Assembly (NCBI GenBank): GCA_902766825.1
Contig: CACXFB010000022.1
Span: 62,001 to 126,000 of the forward strand
DNA: 64,000 nt
Direction: 5' to 3'
Origin: an uncultured Lachnospiraceae bacterium
GTDB taxonomy: Bacteria; Bacillota; Clostridia; Lachnospirales; Lachnospiraceae
Shown here: piece after piece, positions 1,431 through 7,827 of the stretch
Layout: every line of letters starts with the position of its first letter
Position numbering within the stretch: the first letter of the stretch is position 1
Notes under the pieces: generated by a model
What the model was told of the DNA's origin: nothing
The model's database searches: none
What the model saw: only the letters and a program-made list of their open reading frames with translations
Position numbers and translations under genes: made by a program

Positions 1431-2055
1431 CGATTTAAATGATGTGGTGTGTATCACCAACAGAAAAATTTGTGATATTGATTTTCTTGAGAGAATAAAA
1501 CTGGTGGCAGCAAGAAAACCTTACGCCATCATTTTGCGGGAGAAAGATATGGCTCCTGATGAGTATGAAAAGTTAGCTGTTAAGGTAAAAGAAATATGTG
1601 ACAGGGGAAATGTTACCCTTATCCTTCACACATATTATAAAACAGCAATCAGGCTTGGAATAAAAAAGATTCATATGCCATTGCAGGAATTGGAGAAAAT
1701 GCCACCAGAGGACATAGGTTTTTTTGAGGGATTAGGTGCGTCGTGCCACAGTGTTGAGGATGCAAAAAGAGCAACTGCGCTTGGATGCACTTATGTAATA
1801 GCAGGTCATATTTTTGCAACGGACTGTAAAAAAGATCTGCCACCACGAGGAATTGAATTTTTAAAAGAAGTTGTAAAAAGTGTGGATATCCCGGTGTATG
1901 CCATTGGTGGAATTCGTTTGCAGGATGAGTCAAAAAGAACCGTCCCCGCCGACTCATCGAACATGGCGCTGGCACTTGGCGCAGGAGCAAAAAAGGTGTG
2001 TATTATGAGTGGATTAATGAGTCAAAAAGAACCGTCCCCGTTGACTCAGCATTAA
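1408..2055 (+). CDS. thiE: Thiamine phosphate synthase ThiE, carrying two in-frame repeat insertions
   Basis: ThiE joins the pyrimidine and thiazole phosphates to make thiamine monophosphate. The 215-residue protein shows the TIM-barrel features of the family: a VxxAxxxGCTYVIAGHIFAT strand-loop region and the YAIGGI phosphate-binding strand near residue 165. It starts inside thiH with a 23-base overlap and no clear ribosome binding site, so translation is probably coupled. Just after YAIGGI, the segment LQDESKRTVPADSS is encoded by a hairpin repeat (1924-1958). The last residues, SQKEPSPLTQH, come from a second copy (2018-2048). Removing them would leave the more normal continuation NMALALGAGAKKVCIMSG. 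Whether the enzyme tolerates a 14-residue insertion next to its phosphate loop is unknown. Confidence 0.85.
   Translation: MIICMFSNDLNDVVCITNRKICDIDFLERIKLVAARKPYAIILREKDMAPDEYEKLAVKVKEICDRGNVTLILHTYYKTAIRLGIKKIHMPLQELEKMPPEDIGFFEGLGASCHSVEDAKRATALGCTYVIAGHIFATDCKKDLPPRGIEFLKEVVKSVDIPVYAIGGIRLQDESKRTVPADSSNMALALGAGAKKVCIMSGLMSQKEPSPLTQH
1924..1958. repeat. GAACCGTCCCC-loop hairpin repeat, copy 1 (inside thiE)
   Basis: A perfect 8-bp stem, GATGAGTC / GACTCATC, encloses a 19-base loop containing GAACCGTCCCC. It lies in frame within thiE. The same loop core recurs at seven other hairpins in this window with different stem sequences. Copy 2 lies about 60 bases downstream and shares the GAGTC/GACTC stem type. 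Confidence 0.85.
2018..2048. repeat. GAACCGTCCCC-loop hairpin repeat, copy 2 (3' end of thiE)
   Basis: A 6-bp stem, TGAGTC / GACTCA, encloses a 19-base loop that is nearly identical to copy 1 (AAAAAGAACCGTCCCCG core). It supplies most of the last 11 codons of thiE, and the thiE stop codon follows within seven bases. Confidence 0.85.
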
Positions 2056-2078
2056 CCCGCTGGCGGTAAATAATTTAA

Positions 2079-2108
2079 CGGCAGGATTGAAATATATCCT
2101 GCCGTTTT
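2079..2108 (+). terminator. Rho-independent terminator of the thi operon
   Basis: The 9-bp perfect stem CGGCAGGAT / ATCCTGCCG has an 8-base loop and is followed directly by TTTTGTG. It begins 24 bases after the thiE stop, closing the thiamine operon. Confidence 0.85.
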
Positions 2109-2135
2109 GTGAAAAAAATATATAAAGAACAGACG

Positions 2136-2156
2136 AAAGATAGATAAAAGATAGAT
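2136..2156 (+). promoter_or_regulatory. 11-bp-spaced direct repeat, candidate response-regulator site
   Basis: AAAGATAGAT occurs at 2136-2145 and again at 2147-2156, exactly 11 bases apart. OmpR/PhoB-type regulators usually bind tandem half-sites at this pitch. It lies 50 bases upstream of the response regulator start and just before an AT-rich possible -10 (TATTAT). Autoregulation is an inference. Confidence 0.45.
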
Positions 2157-2205
2157 TAAGGTATTATATTGTATTTGGATTTAAGGAAAAAGGAAGGAGC
2201 GGACT

Positions 2206-2883
2206 ATGTTTGATGTGCTGCTTGTGGAGGATGATGAGAGAATACGACAGGTTATATGCGATTATGTTGGAAGAAAAGATGAGATGGACATAAAACTTCA
2301 TATTGCAGTGGATGGCAATATGGGGCTGGATTTGATTTATGAAAATGAATATGACCTCGTGTTGCTTGATGTTATGATGCCGGGTGCTGATGGATTTGAG
2401 CTGTGCAGGGAGCTTAGAAAAAAGAGCAGTGTGCCTATAATTTTTCTCACCGCAAGAGGAAGGGAAGAGGATGTTATATACGGATACGATATCGGATGTG
2501 ATGACTACATAGTAAAACCATTTTCACTTGCAACATTGTATGTGAAAATGAGGGCACTTCTTAACAGATCAAAAGGAACCATTATTTCAAAAGAAATGAA
2601 AGCCGGTGAGATAACTCTAAACCCTGCGACAATGACTGTGAAAAATGGCGACGATACATTGGAACTGGCACAAAAGCAGTATTTGATTTTAAAAATCCTG
2701 ATGGAAAACAAAGGTGCAGTTGTGACCAGGGAGAAACTCATCCTTCGTATCTGGGGATACGACTACGACGGGGATGAACGAATACTTGATAACCACATGA
2801 AGAAACTTCGCAAGGCATTGGGCAGTAATGCCAAGCAGATAAAGACTGTTATAGGAAAAGGATATAAGATAACCGGGGACTAG
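2206..2883 (+). CDS. OmpR-family response regulator
   Basis: This 225-residue protein has an N-terminal receiver domain (about residues 1-120) and a C-terminal winged-helix DNA-binding domain (about 130-225). Receiver landmarks are the acidic pair VEDDE near the N-terminus, the phosphoacceptor Asp in LVLLDVMMPGADG, a switch Thr in IIFLTARG, and the Lys in IVKPF. The C-terminal TVIGKGYKI is typical of the OmpR wing. It should be phosphorylated by the intact histidine kinase two genes downstream. A strong AAGGAAGGAG ribosome binding site precedes the ATG. The next gene starts 15 bases after the stop, so regulator and sensors probably share a transcript. The regulated genes cannot be inferred. 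Confidence 0.93.
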   Translation: MFDVLLVEDDERIRQVICDYVGRKDEMDIKLHIAVDGNMGLDLIYENEYDLVLLDVMMPGADGFELCRELRKKSSVPIIFLTARGREEDVIYGYDIGCDDYIVKPFSLATLYVKMRALLNRSKGTIISKEMKAGEITLNPATMTVKNGDDTLELAQKQYLILKILMENKGAVVTREKLILRIWGYDYDGDERILDNHMKKLRKALGSNAKQIKTVIGKGYKITGD

Positions 2884-2898
2884 AAAGAGAGGAATGAT

Positions 2899-3801
2899 AT
2901 GAAGAATATTAAGGTTAGGTATCTAAGGCAGATGGTAACAAAGCCGGATAAAAAGAAGATATTTATTAAAGGGATTATAGTGTGTTTATTGTTGTATGGA
3001 ATCTTTGTTCATTCATCATATTCAAAAATTTATGAAGGATATAGACGAGTGCTTTTTGTCAGTTTATATGATGTTGCAGATAAAGAAGCAGTTGCGATGA
3101 ATTCCTTTTTTCAGACATATGATGGAAAGGTACAAAACATAGATATAACTGATATAGTGAAGGCAGCTGATTTAGCTGATTATAAAGTTCAAATAAGTGA
3201 TGAACAATACATTTACCCGATTGCAAGATTAGTTCTGCGTCTTAGTAATTTGGAGGAAAAAGAGCTGTATAATCATTTTATAATCAAATCATTTAGTCAG
3301 AAAATAGTTGCGACAAAATTGAAGGGTGAATATGAGTATAAGACGATAAAGGAAAATAATGAGGGAAAAGAGGCACTTAATTTAAGTGATTATTCAAGTG
3401 AAGAGCTAACATGGCGGGAGGTTGGACGTGATGGGGAGTATTACGATTTATACCTATGCTATTCCATTGATGGAATTTTTGAAGACATGGGGGTGACGAT
3501 TATTATATTTTTTGCAGTGGTTCTGCTTGCAATGATGGCGGTAACAATTTTAATTTGCAACAGAATCTACTACAAAAGAAAAGCGAGTTATGAAATATAT
3601 ACATACCGCAATGCTGTTATTAATGAAATTTCTAAAGGGACAAGGCAGCAGTTAAATGATATAAAAGAGAATGCACTTTTGGTACTAAATACTGATGATG
3701 AGGATGTTGTAAAGGAAAAAGCCGGTGAGATGATGCGTGGTGTTGAAAATGTTAACAGACAGATAATTGATGCACTTAAGAAAGGGAAAAAGTATGAGTA
3801 A
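2899..3801 (+). CDS. Membrane sensor with a histidine-less DHp-like domain (pseudo-kinase)
   Basis: The 300-residue protein has a transmembrane helix at about 24-38, an extracytoplasmic domain to about 195, a second helix at about 197-219, and a helical tail. The tail aligns without gaps to the dimerization region of the next gene: KRKASYEIYTYRNAV here against KRKAMYDIDLYKRTT there. The phosphoacceptor His of the downstream kinase corresponds to Lys246 here, and the Pro after it is also missing. The chain ends before any ATP-binding domain. It therefore cannot autophosphorylate, but could dimerize with or modulate the adjacent kinase. Its end overlaps the kinase start by 8 bases. No family name is recognised; the pseudo-kinase reading rests on this alignment. 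Confidence 0.75.
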   Translation: MKNIKVRYLRQMVTKPDKKKIFIKGIIVCLLLYGIFVHSSYSKIYEGYRRVLFVSLYDVADKEAVAMNSFFQTYDGKVQNIDITDIVKAADLADYKVQISDEQYIYPIARLVLRLSNLEEKELYNHFIIKSFSQKIVATKLKGEYEYKTIKENNEGKEALNLSDYSSEELTWREVGRDGEYYDLYLCYSIDGIFEDMGVTIIIFFAVVLLAMMAVTILICNRIYYKRKASYEIYTYRNAVINEISKGTRQQLNDIKENALLVLNTDDEDVVKEKAGEMMRGVENVNRQIIDALKKGKKYE

Positions 3802-5611
3802 AGATAGAGAAGCAAAAAAACTTGAAAAATATAAAAAACAGATTACGCTTAAACCAAGTTTTAAGAAAATTCTGCGTACTCCGCTTTTGATTGCAATATC
3901 CCTGACGGTAATAATATGTACTATTGTTGCATTTAGAATGTGGAATAGTTATGAGCAAACAAAAAAAAGAGTAATGCTGTGGAATCTTGAAAGCAATAAA
4001 TCAAGCTTGGAAGATGAAATTAAATTCTTTGAGGATGCCGGAATAGATGATAAAGAAAAAATGCGTAACTGTATTTTGTGGAACATGGATGACGGGCAGA
4101 GACATAAGGATTGTTTATTAATTAATGGGAAATCAACGTTGACTGATGATGATTTAAATGTTATTAACCCTTACTTAGCTTTTTCATATACACTGACTGA
4201 TAATACCGATGATTGCTTGGTTGGAAGTGAAAAAGAATATATTTACATGGCTAAAATAAAGGATACATATGTGACGTATTATAATTCTTGGGGCGGATAT
4301 GAGTTCTTTAGTGAATCTGATGTTTTTGCATATAAGCCGGATTCTAAGGTGTTAGATAAACTATATGAATGGAAAAAGATCGTTGATGAGGCTGAAGAAC
4401 ATTCGGAGAGGTCCTCTTACCTGAATTTTTACAGAGAAAAATATGAAATAAAATTATCAACGGATATGTACATTAAAGGTGATAAATTTGTACCGTGCAA
4501 ATTATATTTAGTATGTTATGGGGGGGATGAAAAAGATGACCCGATCGAAAAAGAAATTGATAGTATAGATATAGTAACAAACGCTGATGAATACGATGGA
4601 TGGGAATATGTAACTGTAGATGACAAAGATGATGTTGCAAGCTTTAGCCTGTGTTCTGATTCAGTGATTGGCAATTTTATAGAATATAAGAAAATGGGGG
4701 ATAGAATCGATGATGATAATCCTGACGTGGTAGTAAAGGAAAGTGTTATTGGATCTGATGGACACGAGTATGAAATTAAATTAACAGGTGACTATGATAT
4801 TTTTGCCGATTATGGAAAAAAGAACGTAATTAAATACCTTGAAATTTTGTATGGTGGCAGTGTTATTGGAATGGCTGCTGTGGTCGTTATCATATGTTTT
4901 ATTGTATATCGTAAAAGAAAAGCAATGTATGACATTGATTTATACAAAAGGACGACTGGTAATGCAATGGCGCATGATATTAAGAGTCCTTTGATGGCTG
5001 TGTCCGGATATGCAGAAAACATGAAAGAAAATATTAGCGAAGAGGAGAGAAAAGAATACGCCAAAAAGATTGTTGAAACTGTGGATGAAATGAATGAGAA
5101 CATAGGTTTTATGGATAATTTGGTGAAGGTTCAGGAGGGTGTTTTAATTAGGGACGGACAGGACGGTTTAAACAGGCAGGCCAGTTTTGGGGAGAAAAAA
5201 ATAAATGTATGGGAAGAAATAAATACATTTATTGAATCTAATAGCGGACTCATTAAAAACAAAAGATTAGATTTTAATATCCAGGGGGAATGCGCTGTTA
5301 AATGTAATGAAATGTGGATGGATCATTTGATAAACAATCTCCTGGGTAACGCAGTCAAGTACAGCAAAGAGGGCGGGCAGATTGATATACAATTAAACAA
5401 AAAAATGATAGTTGTAGCAAATGATTATGAAGGTCAGATTGATATAAAAGGCGATGAACTTAAGGAAGCATTTGTTAAAGGCGACAATTCGAGACACACC
5501 GAAGGAAGCGGCGTCGGATTATCCATAGTGGACAGCGTAGTAAAAAGGAACGGTTGGAAAATGAATATAGAAACCAAGGATGGCAGGTTTGTTGTAAAGA
5601 TAAAGATGTGA
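3794..5611 (+). CDS. Membrane sensor histidine kinase
   Basis: The ATG at 3794 is preferred because it follows AAGAAAGGG at a proper distance; an earlier in-frame ATG at 3767 has no such site. The 605-residue protein has a basic N-terminus, a membrane helix at about 30-49, a large extracytoplasmic domain rich in Asp, Glu and Tyr, and a second helix near 355-375. The DHp motif AMAHDIKSP follows, with phosphoacceptor His394. The ATPase domain shows an N box (LINNLLGNAVKYSKE) and a G box (EGSGVGLSIV). It is the only member of this cluster with complete catalytic parts and presumably phosphorylates the upstream OmpR regulator. Its TGA stop lies in the first bases of a hairpin repeat (5608-5636). 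Confidence 0.92.
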   Translation: MSKDREAKKLEKYKKQITLKPSFKKILRTPLLIAISLTVIICTIVAFRMWNSYEQTKKRVMLWNLESNKSSLEDEIKFFEDAGIDDKEKMRNCILWNMDDGQRHKDCLLINGKSTLTDDDLNVINPYLAFSYTLTDNTDDCLVGSEKEYIYMAKIKDTYVTYYNSWGGYEFFSESDVFAYKPDSKVLDKLYEWKKIVDEAEEHSERSSYLNFYREKYEIKLSTDMYIKGDKFVPCKLYLVCYGGDEKDDPIEKEIDSIDIVTNADEYDGWEYVTVDDKDDVASFSLCSDSVIGNFIEYKKMGDRIDDDNPDVVVKESVIGSDGHEYEIKLTGDYDIFADYGKKNVIKYLEILYGGSVIGMAAVVVIICFIVYRKRKAMYDIDLYKRTTGNAMAHDIKSPLMAVSGYAENMKENISEEERKEYAKKIVETVDEMNENIGFMDNLVKVQEGVLIRDGQDGLNRQASFGEKKINVWEEINTFIESNSGLIKNKRLDFNIQGECAVKCNEMWMDHLINNLLGNAVKYSKEGGQIDIQLNKKMIVVANDYEGQIDIKGDELKEAFVKGDNSRHTEGSGVGLSIVDSVVKRNGWKMNIETKDGRFVVKIKM

Positions 5612-5636
5612 AACGGGGGACGGTTCCTCGTTCCAC
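5608..5636. repeat. GAACCGTCCCC-loop hairpin repeat, copy 3 (3' end of kinase gene)
   Basis: GTGAAAC (5608-5614) and GTTCCAC (5630-5636) pair with one mismatch around a 15-base loop, GGGGGACGGTTCCTC, the complement of GAGGAACCGTCCCCC. The mismatched stem looks like a recombinant between the GTGAAAC and GTGGAAC stem types seen elsewhere. The TGA in GTGAAAC is the kinase stop codon. Confidence 0.85.
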
Positions 5637-5762
5637 CAGCCTATTTTAATGTTACTCTAATGAAAAAAGATTAATTTGGTTTAATATTGTTGTATAAAGT
5701 GATGCTGAACGTAAATCATTTTAACTATTTAACCATTATACATTAAAGAAAGGGAATGTGTT

Positions 5763-6959
5763 ATGAGTAAAGTGAATGACGATAGTATTAAAGAAAAAAA
5801 TATTCTTAAACCAAAGTTTTCAAAAATCTTTTTAAAGGGAGTTGCAATTGGACTCGTTGTAGCTATCATACTATGTGTGATAAGTACAGTAATATTAAAT
5901 CGATATTATAAGCTCGGAATAAAAAAATCGATGGAGCAATCAATTGACAATCAAAAAAATATTGTTGAAAATCAGTCGAGATTATTTGTTGATTCCGGCA
6001 ATGAAGATAAGAATGAGTTGTATAATGATATGTTGTTGCGTATGGAAAACACACAATTTCATACGGCGTGGAATGTGTTTGATAATTACTCGGATATGGA
6101 TGAGGGACATTATGTGCCAAAGATGGCAAATGGTTTATATGAATTTCTTGGAAAACATGGAATAATAGAACGCGTTAATGGCTACAATGTCATTTCATTT
6201 TCATTGAGCGATAATACATCAGGAGATGTTATAGGAACTGAGTGCGAAAAAATCTATATATCATTGTGGGACCAGGAAGATAGTGATAAATCATCCTATC
6301 TGACCCGGACAAAAGAGGATGAGACACAAGGAACTTACAGCGTATATTCGTATAAACCTTCATCAGAAGTTTTAGACAAGCTTATTGAATGGGAAAATGA
6401 TATTGAAAAAGAATATGAGAAAACAGAAGACTCCTTTGGTGTGCCGGAGAAAGTATATTACATAAAAATGTCTGATGATATATATGTTAAAGATCATGAA
6501 TTTGTACCAAGCCAGTTTGTACTTGGTTATTATGATTGGGATGGGAAAAATGATATAGAAGAAATTGTGGATAGTATTGATGTAGGAGTTGATAAGAAAG
6601 AAGATGAAAGCTTTAGACTTATAAGCAGAAGTAAGAATTCTGAGGATTTGGCTGATATTTTAAATACCAAGGAAGACAGATTTATGGACTATTACAACCA
6701 TAATGACAGAATTAACAGTGGTAATCCGGATGTTTTGGTAAAAGATACGGTACTTGCAGCTGATGGTCATGAGTATGAGATAAAGATAATCGGAGACTAC
6801 GATATATTTGCTGATTGGGGAAAGACCAACGTAATTATATACTTCGCATTTGTATATAATTTTATTATTTCAGGTGTACTGGTAATAGTTTTAGTTATCT
6901 CCTTGCTTGTGTATAAGCAGGTGAGTGGAACGGGGGACGGTTCTTCGTTCCACTTCTAA
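5763..6959 (+). CDS. Truncated paralogue of the histidine kinase, sensor half only
   Basis: The 398-residue product matches the kinase at 3794-5611 in layout and in local motifs: the N-terminal LKPKFSKI versus LKPSFKKI, and before the second helix DGHEYEIKIIGDYDIFADWG versus a nearly identical block in the kinase. It has a membrane helix at about 24-46, an extracytoplasmic domain, and a second helix at about 358-385. The homology stops at the cytoplasmic edge (LVYK). The final residues VSGTGDGSSFHF are encoded by a hairpin repeat, which also carries the stop codon. All DHp and ATPase sequence is gone. It may be a pseudogene or a surviving decoy sensor; a good AAGAAAGGGA ribosome binding site remains. 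Confidence 0.8.
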   Translation: MSKVNDDSIKEKNILKPKFSKIFLKGVAIGLVVAIILCVISTVILNRYYKLGIKKSMEQSIDNQKNIVENQSRLFVDSGNEDKNELYNDMLLRMENTQFHTAWNVFDNYSDMDEGHYVPKMANGLYEFLGKHGIIERVNGYNVISFSLSDNTSGDVIGTECEKIYISLWDQEDSDKSSYLTRTKEDETQGTYSVYSYKPSSEVLDKLIEWENDIEKEYEKTEDSFGVPEKVYYIKMSDDIYVKDHEFVPSQFVLGYYDWDGKNDIEEIVDSIDVGVDKKEDESFRLISRSKNSEDLADILNTKEDRFMDYYNHNDRINSGNPDVLVKDTVLAADGHEYEIKIIGDYDIFADWGKTNVIIYFAFVYNFIISGVLVIVLVISLLVYKQVSGTGDGSSFHF

Positions 6960-7019
6960 AACAAGAGATGTTTCCAATTGACTTTGGCTTTGGAACGAGG
7001 AACCGTCCCCCGTTCCACT
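6924..7019. repeat. Inverted pair of GAACCGTCCCC-loop hairpins (copies 4a/4b)
   Basis: The 29-bp arms 6924-6952 and 6991-7019 are inverted copies differing at one base and separated by 38 bases. Each arm is itself a hairpin: AGTGGAAC/GTTCCACT and GGAAC/GTTCC, with the 15-base loop GAGGAACCGTCCCCC or its complement (one variant base). The unit separates two convergent genes and supplies the end of the truncated sensor. The full structure could act as a bidirectional terminator. Confidence 0.88.
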
Positions 7020-7026
7020 GACTCGC

Positions 7027-7827
7027 TTAATTGTATTCAACTTTTTCAAGAAAAAGTCCGGTTGGCGCAACGCAAGGACCGGCAAGGGCTCGATTCTTTG
7101 AGGCTAAAATATCAGCTACGTCTGAAGCGGATATCTTATGCTCGCCTACAAGGATAAGTGTGCCGGTAAGAATACGAACCATATTATAGAGAAAACCGTC
7201 GCCGTTATAACGAATAACAAGTTCACTGCCTGAACTGTCAAATGTAATTGAATTGATAGTTCGGACGGTGGATTTTTTTGTTTTTGAATTGTTGGTAAAT
7301 GCCCTGAAATCATGTGTGCCTACAAGTTTGTCAGCGGCGCTCTTCATTGCCGTAACATCAAGAGGCTGTGGGTGAGAAAGGCTGTAGCGGACGTTAAAAA
7401 CGTCTGCTTTGGGGCGGGTATCGATATGATAAGCATAGGTCTTGCCGGTTGCATTAAGTCTTGCATGAAAACGATCGGCGGCCTTTGTAAGAGACAGAAC
7501 TGTTATGTCTGCAGGAAGATATGAATTAATATAATTCATAATGTACTCGTCAGAATAATTTGCGGCATTGATAAGCTTGAAATTAGCTACCTGTCCGAGT
7601 GCATGTACGCCAGCATCTGTCCTTCCGGAAGCATGAAGTTCCACGGGTGCGGTATCTGAATCTGCCCTGTCATCAAGTATGTTAAGTATGTTTTCTATCT
7701 TTTCACAGATTGTATTAGAGGTATTACCCTGCCTTTGAAAACCATTGTATCTTGTCCCGTCATATTGAAAAATCATCTTGTAGTTTGTCATTGATTTTGT
7801 CATTGATTCTGTTATTGACTCTGCCAT
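7027..7827 (-). CDS. truA: tRNA pseudouridine synthase A
   Basis: TruA converts uridines 38-40 of the tRNA anticodon arm to pseudouridine. The 266-residue protein contains the catalytic Asp motif GRTDAGVHALGQ, the N-terminal FQYDGTRYNGFQRQ, and the late segment GDGFLYNMVRI, all characteristic of TruA. The first ATG (7827) follows AGGCAGGG and is kept as the start. The added N-terminus ESITESMTKSMTN is encoded by about three 12-base tandem units, and ATGs at residues 9, 13 and 18 are possible alternatives, the last two nearer the usual TruA start. The gene converges on the truncated sensor across an inverted repeat pair. No operon partner is adjacent. Confidence 0.93.
   Translation of the reverse strand: MAESITESMTKSMTNYKMIFQYDGTRYNGFQRQGNTSNTICEKIENILNILDDRADSDTAPVELHASGRTDAGVHALGQVANFKLINAANYSDEYIMNYINSYLPADITVLSLTKAADRFHARLNATGKTYAYHIDTRPKADVFNVRYSLSHPQPLDVTAMKSAADKLVGTHDFRAFTNNSKTKKSTVRTINSITFDSSGSELVIRYNGDGFLYNMVRILTGTLILVGEHKISASDVADILASKNRALAGPCVAPTGLFLEKVEYN

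Follow-up and report, generated by a model that had tools for sequence, protein, structure and literature searches.

A histidine kinase-like membrane protein without phosphoacceptor histidine and ATP-binding domain, encoded between a response regulator and its putative partner kinase in a Lachnospiraceae bacterium

Between the genes for a response regulator (RR) and a sensor histidine kinase (HK), the genome of an uncultured Lachnospiraceae bacterium carries a gene for a membrane protein, here called A, whose C-terminal end is predicted to be a degenerate DHp hairpin. Judged from its sequence, A would be a catalytically dead, DHp-ending partner kinase, most likely a silent partner that adjusts HK. 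The reading we prefer, to which we assign a probability of roughly 0.55, is that A diverged from a copy within the HK lineage, is co-produced with HK, pairs with it through TM2 and the DHp region, and shifts its kinase/phosphatase balance.

The locus and its genes

The window, i.e., the whole stretch of 64,000 nucleotides that was analyzed (G000:C22:62001-126000), belongs to a genome of 2.87 Mb in 117 contigs. The genes discussed here all lie on the + strand in the order RR, A, HK, and T, and they follow genes that we take to be ThiH- and ThiE-like. The features are:

2206-2883, +: RR, OmpR-type response regulator, 225 aa (Pfam Response_reg, 88.8 bits; Trans_reg_C, 79.4 bits)
2899-3801, +: protein A, 300 aa (TM1, extracellular region, TM2, and degenerate DHp hairpin at the C-terminal end)
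3499-3690, +: TM2 of A continuing into DHp helix 1, residues 201-264 (hydropathy; AF2 helix 191-264; profile match 204-246)
3634-3636, +: Lys246 codon AAA of A, opposite His394 of HK (ungapped blastp alignment; coordinate computed from the ORF start)
3700-3795, +: predicted DHp-like helix 2 of A, residues 268-299 (AF2)
3794-3801, +: 8-base overlap ATGAGTAA of the HK start and the A stop (sequence)
3794-5611, +: HK, sensor histidine kinase, 605 aa (Pfam HisKA, 34.5 bits; HATPase_c, 45.9 bits; Foldseek match to HK853, E 3e-11)
5763-6959, +: T, HK-sensor paralogue that stops right behind TM2 (a dispersed repeat contains its final residues and stop codon)

Because the stop of A and the start of HK overlap by eight bases, translation of the two proteins is suggested to be coupled. 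The preferred HK start is the ATG at 3794, not the TTG at 3767; AAAGGG sits upstream of this ATG, from which the HK residue numbering (e.g., His394) is counted. Codon usage in the A frame resembles that of the neighboring genes (0.138 in frame, -0.71 and -0.85 out of frame). A promoter and terminator scan of 2040-7040 gave matches no commoner than those in shuffled sequences (23 versus 23.2 and 3 versus 2.2, respectively).

Several repeats are scattered over the region. Copies of a dispersed repeat with the core GAACGGGGGACGGTTC are found in the window at 5608-5636, 6925-6953, and 6990-7018, one at the end of HK and another holding the last residues and the stop of T; at one mismatch or less this core has 65 places in the genome, while the reversed control has 0. 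A similar repeat, AAGAACCGTCCCCG, occurs in two copies (1925-1956 and 2017-2048) within the 3′ part of the ThiE-like ORF, the C-terminus of which is therefore partly repeat-encoded.

HK looks like a normal kinase. The best Foldseek matches are HK853 structures (E 3e-11), and the matches listed are kinases, aligned mostly over their kinase part. HK carries NLLGNAVKY, presumably the N-box, and the glycine-rich GSGVGL, while a clear DxGxG box is absent, as it is in the seven of ten relatives whose region was compared. An earlier note on this DNA had described the cluster as one regulator, one active kinase, and two catalytically dead sensors, all of them membrane proteins. This description stands for A, which appears dead, and in part for T, which is a truncated paralogue; RR is not a membrane protein, and HK is probably active, to judge from its domains.

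Register and lost catalytic parts of protein A

In a blastp comparison, A175-289 aligns with HK319-437 (E=4e-9, 35/120 identical); the DHp part is gap-free and K246 faces H394, just as the earlier note had placed them. Where the H-box of HK reads HDIKSP, A has KGTRQQ (starting at K246), such that positions 0, +1, +4, and +5 are replaced and the Lys at +3 has become Arg. The phosphoacceptor His is absent, with Lys246 in its place. Also absent is the CA (HATPase_c) domain; the protein ends at residue 300, before any ATP-binding domain, as had been proposed. A Pfam search of A returned neither HisKA nor HATPase at E<=1, whereas HK has both above the cut-off; neither A nor T has any Pfam match above it. 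A has two TM segments (about 21-39 and 201-219), and a motif just before the second is common to A (DGEYYDLYLCYSIDGIFEDMG), HK (DGHEYEIKLTGDYDIFADYG), T, and a protein of another genome of the family (G369, see below); this motif identifies A as a paralogue of both HK and T. On this sequence evidence, A can be classed as a kinase homologue in which catalytic function appears to be lost, both the His and the CA domain being gone.

The register was also assessed against other kinases. Setting K246 opposite the His was the best of 18 registers in 13/13 comparisons with TM2-to-DHp segments (12 other H-box proteins and HK), one unrelated kinase among the 13 scoring negative in this register. The A tail after K246, compared with 34 distinct DHp segments, had a mean score of -2.4 in the K=His register and of -20.5 or less in the 17 others. 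Its best partner was a CA-less protein of another genome (G190, see below) with a score of 60, followed by a second best of 20, while none of 300 shuffled tails reached a panel score above 18. Moreover, a profile of TM2, juxtamembrane, and DHp regions from kinases of other genomes gave A 21.7 bits over an aligned stretch of 204-246 only, compared with 10.5 bits for the best of 500 copies shuffled over residues 223-300. A juxtamembrane and DHp profile gave 7.9-10.7 bits, below the shuffle maxima of 12.8-14.0, and a DHp-only profile without TM2 did not recognize A (0.4-0.5 bits versus shuffles of up to 12.9-13.8).

Piecewise identity tests (30 comparisons over six proteins) show that the likeness of A to HK is unevenly distributed: 9/23 residues are identical over A 223-245 (0/20,000 shuffles as good), 7/33 over 263-295 (p=0.02, which is weak), and 2/16 over 247-262 (shuffle p=0.12), the least conserved piece. 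The last value bears on the idea that A is a sink or antagonist of RR, its degenerate DHp still docking the regulator without phosphotransfer. In kinases the RR docks on the DHp helices, as this idea would have it; residues 247-262 are, however, part of the docking surface, and their poor conservation makes such a role highly improbable.

The hydrophobic core of the DHp hairpin is mostly preserved. After K246, A is hydrophobic in 9/13 core columns relative to 9/36 other columns (Fisher p=0.007), a count that register +4 also reaches (9/13), tying register 0. AF2 modeling of A (15 sequences; mean pLDDT 62.6) gives high values in TM1 and over 201-300 (74-97 in blocks of ten) and values <50 over 56-189, the extracellular part. 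The predicted structure has a helix at 191-264, a turn, and a helix at 268-299, i.e., TM2 running into the two-helix hairpin that the earlier note had expected of the tail. VIA-align 2 matches cover 209-300 and are headed by two-helix proteins, designed and unrelated (Z 9.1 or lower). Kinase chains are among the matches: 8vc9 (Z 8.7, rmsd 3.8, 89 aligned), the DHp chain 4kp4 (Z 8.2, rmsd 1.7, 66 aligned), 9p6i (Z 7.3, rmsd 2.4, 69 aligned), and the DHp chain 6paj (Z 7.2, rmsd 2.0, 68 aligned). The Z of the DHp-chain matches falls in the range common to helical pairs and the match is not specific, so that the modeled fold is compatible with, rather than proof of, a DHp. Taken together, the tail looks like a DHp hairpin with the buried face kept and the catalytic face lost, with good confidence for the register and moderate confidence for helix 2.

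The extracellular part of A differs from that of HK in length and sequence, and nothing in A clearly corresponds to the longer extracellular part that HK and T have. This difference, together with the lost H-box face, would fit a self-standing accessory membrane sensor, the hairpin of which forms a homodimer and the contact of which with HK is limited to TM or extracellular regions. DHp hairpins normally homodimerise, and YycH and YycI are accessory proteins that touch WalK in this manner. The TM2 and juxtamembrane region of A is, however, most similar to that of HK (25/97 identical, the best of 13 segments compared), as expected of a common pairing surface, and we consider the self-standing sensor unlikely.

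Distribution of A and of CA-less sensors in the family

A appears to be restricted to its own lineage. Among 98 related genomes a match to A was found in one, its own. In 397 genomes of the same family, nine had any match at E<=0.01, and the eight foreign ones were weak (E>=0.0015). Of these eight loci (L037-L044), two (L041 and L042) contain full RR-HK pairs, L040 encodes the CA-less G190 protein, and L044 has another type of sensor kinase; nothing recognizably related to A was found in the remaining four. A pattern scan of genome_contigs (about 85,000 species), which detects close relatives only and from which records very near the window genome may be left out, gave no A orthologue, and a search of viral_contigs gave none beyond weak matches to other proteins. 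The genus of the source is represented by this genome alone.

The earlier note had proposed a search for the RR/pseudo-HK/HK triplet in relatives, and the triplet does not recur in the 27 related RR loci that were read. The 10 closest full kinases (nine from eight genomes among 299; one, L041/L065, from the 397-genome search) all directly follow their RR. A survey based on RR gave 28 foreign matches in the 299 genomes at E<=1e-55, and 27 of these loci were read. A kinase is next in 23 (L091, split by an in-frame stop, included), an unrelated 300-aa multi-TM ORF stands between RR and HK in one (L084), and no kinase was found next on that strand in three (L085, L089, and L094). An A-like gene was found in 0/27, and the RR-A-HK triplet is consequently not a general architecture. 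As to single loci, the kinase in L091 (3000-6400, -; offset about 1628) carries a single in-frame stop codon that separates the sensor from TM2, reflecting a pseudogene or a sequencing error, and the ORF between RR and HK in L084 (G110; 2500-6200, -) has a CxxC zinc-ribbon-like start and several TM segments.

That A is found in one genome only in these data, that its H-box is gone, and that relatives manage without it (10/10 RR-HK relatives; 0/27 RR loci with an A-like gene) would be expected if A were a decaying kinase copy without output, tolerated since its frame carries the ribosome to the HK start. Set against such a leftover are the full-length frame with codon usage like that of the neighbors and the DHp core pattern and register, which are kept although the catalytic residues are lost. 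We consider a leftover rather unlikely.

Sensors that end at the DHp do occur in related genomes, which belong to two other genera. In G190 (241 aa) and G327 (297 aa), a TM-TM-DHp gene overlaps the RR gene and stops at the DHp end with HDLKTP intact; no HATPase or full kinase gene follows in the stretch read. G435, of the same genus as G327, has a CA-less sensor 91% identical to that of G327 and ending at the same residue:

L066:6550-7275, -: CA-less sensor of G190
L083:5481-6374, +: CA-less sensor of G327
L104: CA-less sensor of G435

Pairwise comparison of the G327 and G435 genes over 289 codons (Nei-Gojobori) gives a dN/dS of 0.085, with 0.05 for the DHp part, and the pair is under purifying selection. 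Therefore, DHp-ending sensors can be selectively maintained in the family; this raises the plausibility of a function for A but is no proof of it. A resembles these three proteins in its layout (TM, extracellular part, TM, and DHp) and in ending at about the same point, and the G190 DHp is the best match to its tail (14/49 identical). In contrast, the three keep HDLKTP, whereas A has no His and adjoins a full kinase gene. A common family of A and the G190 and G327 proteins was considered and dropped: the A tail fits the G190 DHp well, but its juxtamembrane piece does not fit that of G190 (3/23, p=0.08), and the tail also has good scores against further DHp segments from this kinase group. Convergence after CA loss is as likely an explanation.

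A as a presumed partner of HK

In the reading preferred here, A would derive from a copy in the HK lineage from which the ATP-binding domain and the H-box disappeared, while TM2, the juxtamembrane helix, and the hydrophobic DHp core were retained. It would be produced together with HK from an RR-A-HK operon and may pair with it in the membrane through TM2/DHp. The extracellular part of A, different from that of HK, may sense a signal of its own and would shift the kinase/phosphatase balance of HK towards the single RR, in the direction of either attenuation or activation. Such a pair would contain a single His and a single CA domain. With phosphorylation by HK in trans, the effect of A would be to silence HK; with phosphorylation in cis, HK may stay active and only the response to the signal would be changed.

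This reading bears on the proposal of the earlier note that dead partners tune one kinase within a multi-sensor complex. For A the proposal holds up in that it is encoded between RR and HK and overlaps the HK start, and is therefore well placed to pair with HK. For T the case is weak, since T has no DHp and the only relative found adjoins an ABC transporter gene. Aligned with HK over 389 columns, T shows 32% identity (E=4e-56), and its sequence stops after TM2. One relative was found in the 397 genomes of the family (G369, 39%), and the same G369 record was the only match in the genome_contigs scan; this relative also ends after TM2. It lies 3′ of a gene for a 999-aa ABC transporter (L028:267-4850) on a 6.8-kb contig that carries no kinase gene, hinting at a transporter-linked role. 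T probably acts apart from the kinase complex, with no cytoplasmic domain to speak of. Truncation of T by the repeat at its end was also considered; the idea is weakened by the G369 relative, which ends at about the same place with no repeat copy seen.

A bolder version is that A and HK, by virtue of translational coupling, always or preferentially form an asymmetric dimer in which there is just one CA domain and one His, and that DHp-ending sensors free of an ATP-binding domain, with Lys in A and with His in G190 and G327/G435, have repeatedly evolved in the family as real signaling parts, served by a kinase in trans or acting as pure partners or phosphatases. We offer this version as speculation and think it doubtful.

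Related arrangements are known. RocA of group A Streptococcus is, like A, a membrane sensor-kinase homologue without kinase function that acts through a real kinase; it is reported to interact with CovS and to do without its H246, and overexpression of a form lacking the CA domain is enough for complementation (PMC7028121). RocA differs from A in its six TM segments, its degenerate CA domain, and its His246; in A there are only two TM segments, the CA domain is missing, and Lys occupies the His position. Unlike RocA, A is encoded beside its presumed partner. The FasBCA locus of the same organism likewise combines one regulator with two kinase-like membrane proteins; FasB and FasC heterodimerise, the kinase domain of FasC is dispensable, and FasC is proposed to be a pseudokinase (PMC12675982). 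FasC, as described there, needs its His246; A has none and thus cannot be a phosphate carrier like FasC. The Fas regulator is ComE-like, whereas the regulator here is OmpR-like. RetS of Pseudomonas is presented in the same source as a kinase-like modulator of another kinase (PMC12675982). DivL of Caulobacter resembles A as a kinase-like partner modulating another kinase. A few searches of the open-licence literature surfaced RocA, FasBC, DivL, and RetS, and none of the titles and abstract openings listed describes a DHp-ending partner with Lys. DivL and RetS keep a CA-like domain and further domains, and neither is known as an RR-HK insert that ends at the DHp.

Partner pseudokinases have been described in a small number of well-studied bacteria, and RocA, FasC, DivL, and RetS retain a catalytic remnant. 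If the preferred reading is true, A would be a natural partner trimmed to membrane helices and DHp with no reactive His, separating dimerisation from catalysis within one operon, and the tuning of a live kinase by a dead subunit would be testable without engineered mutants.
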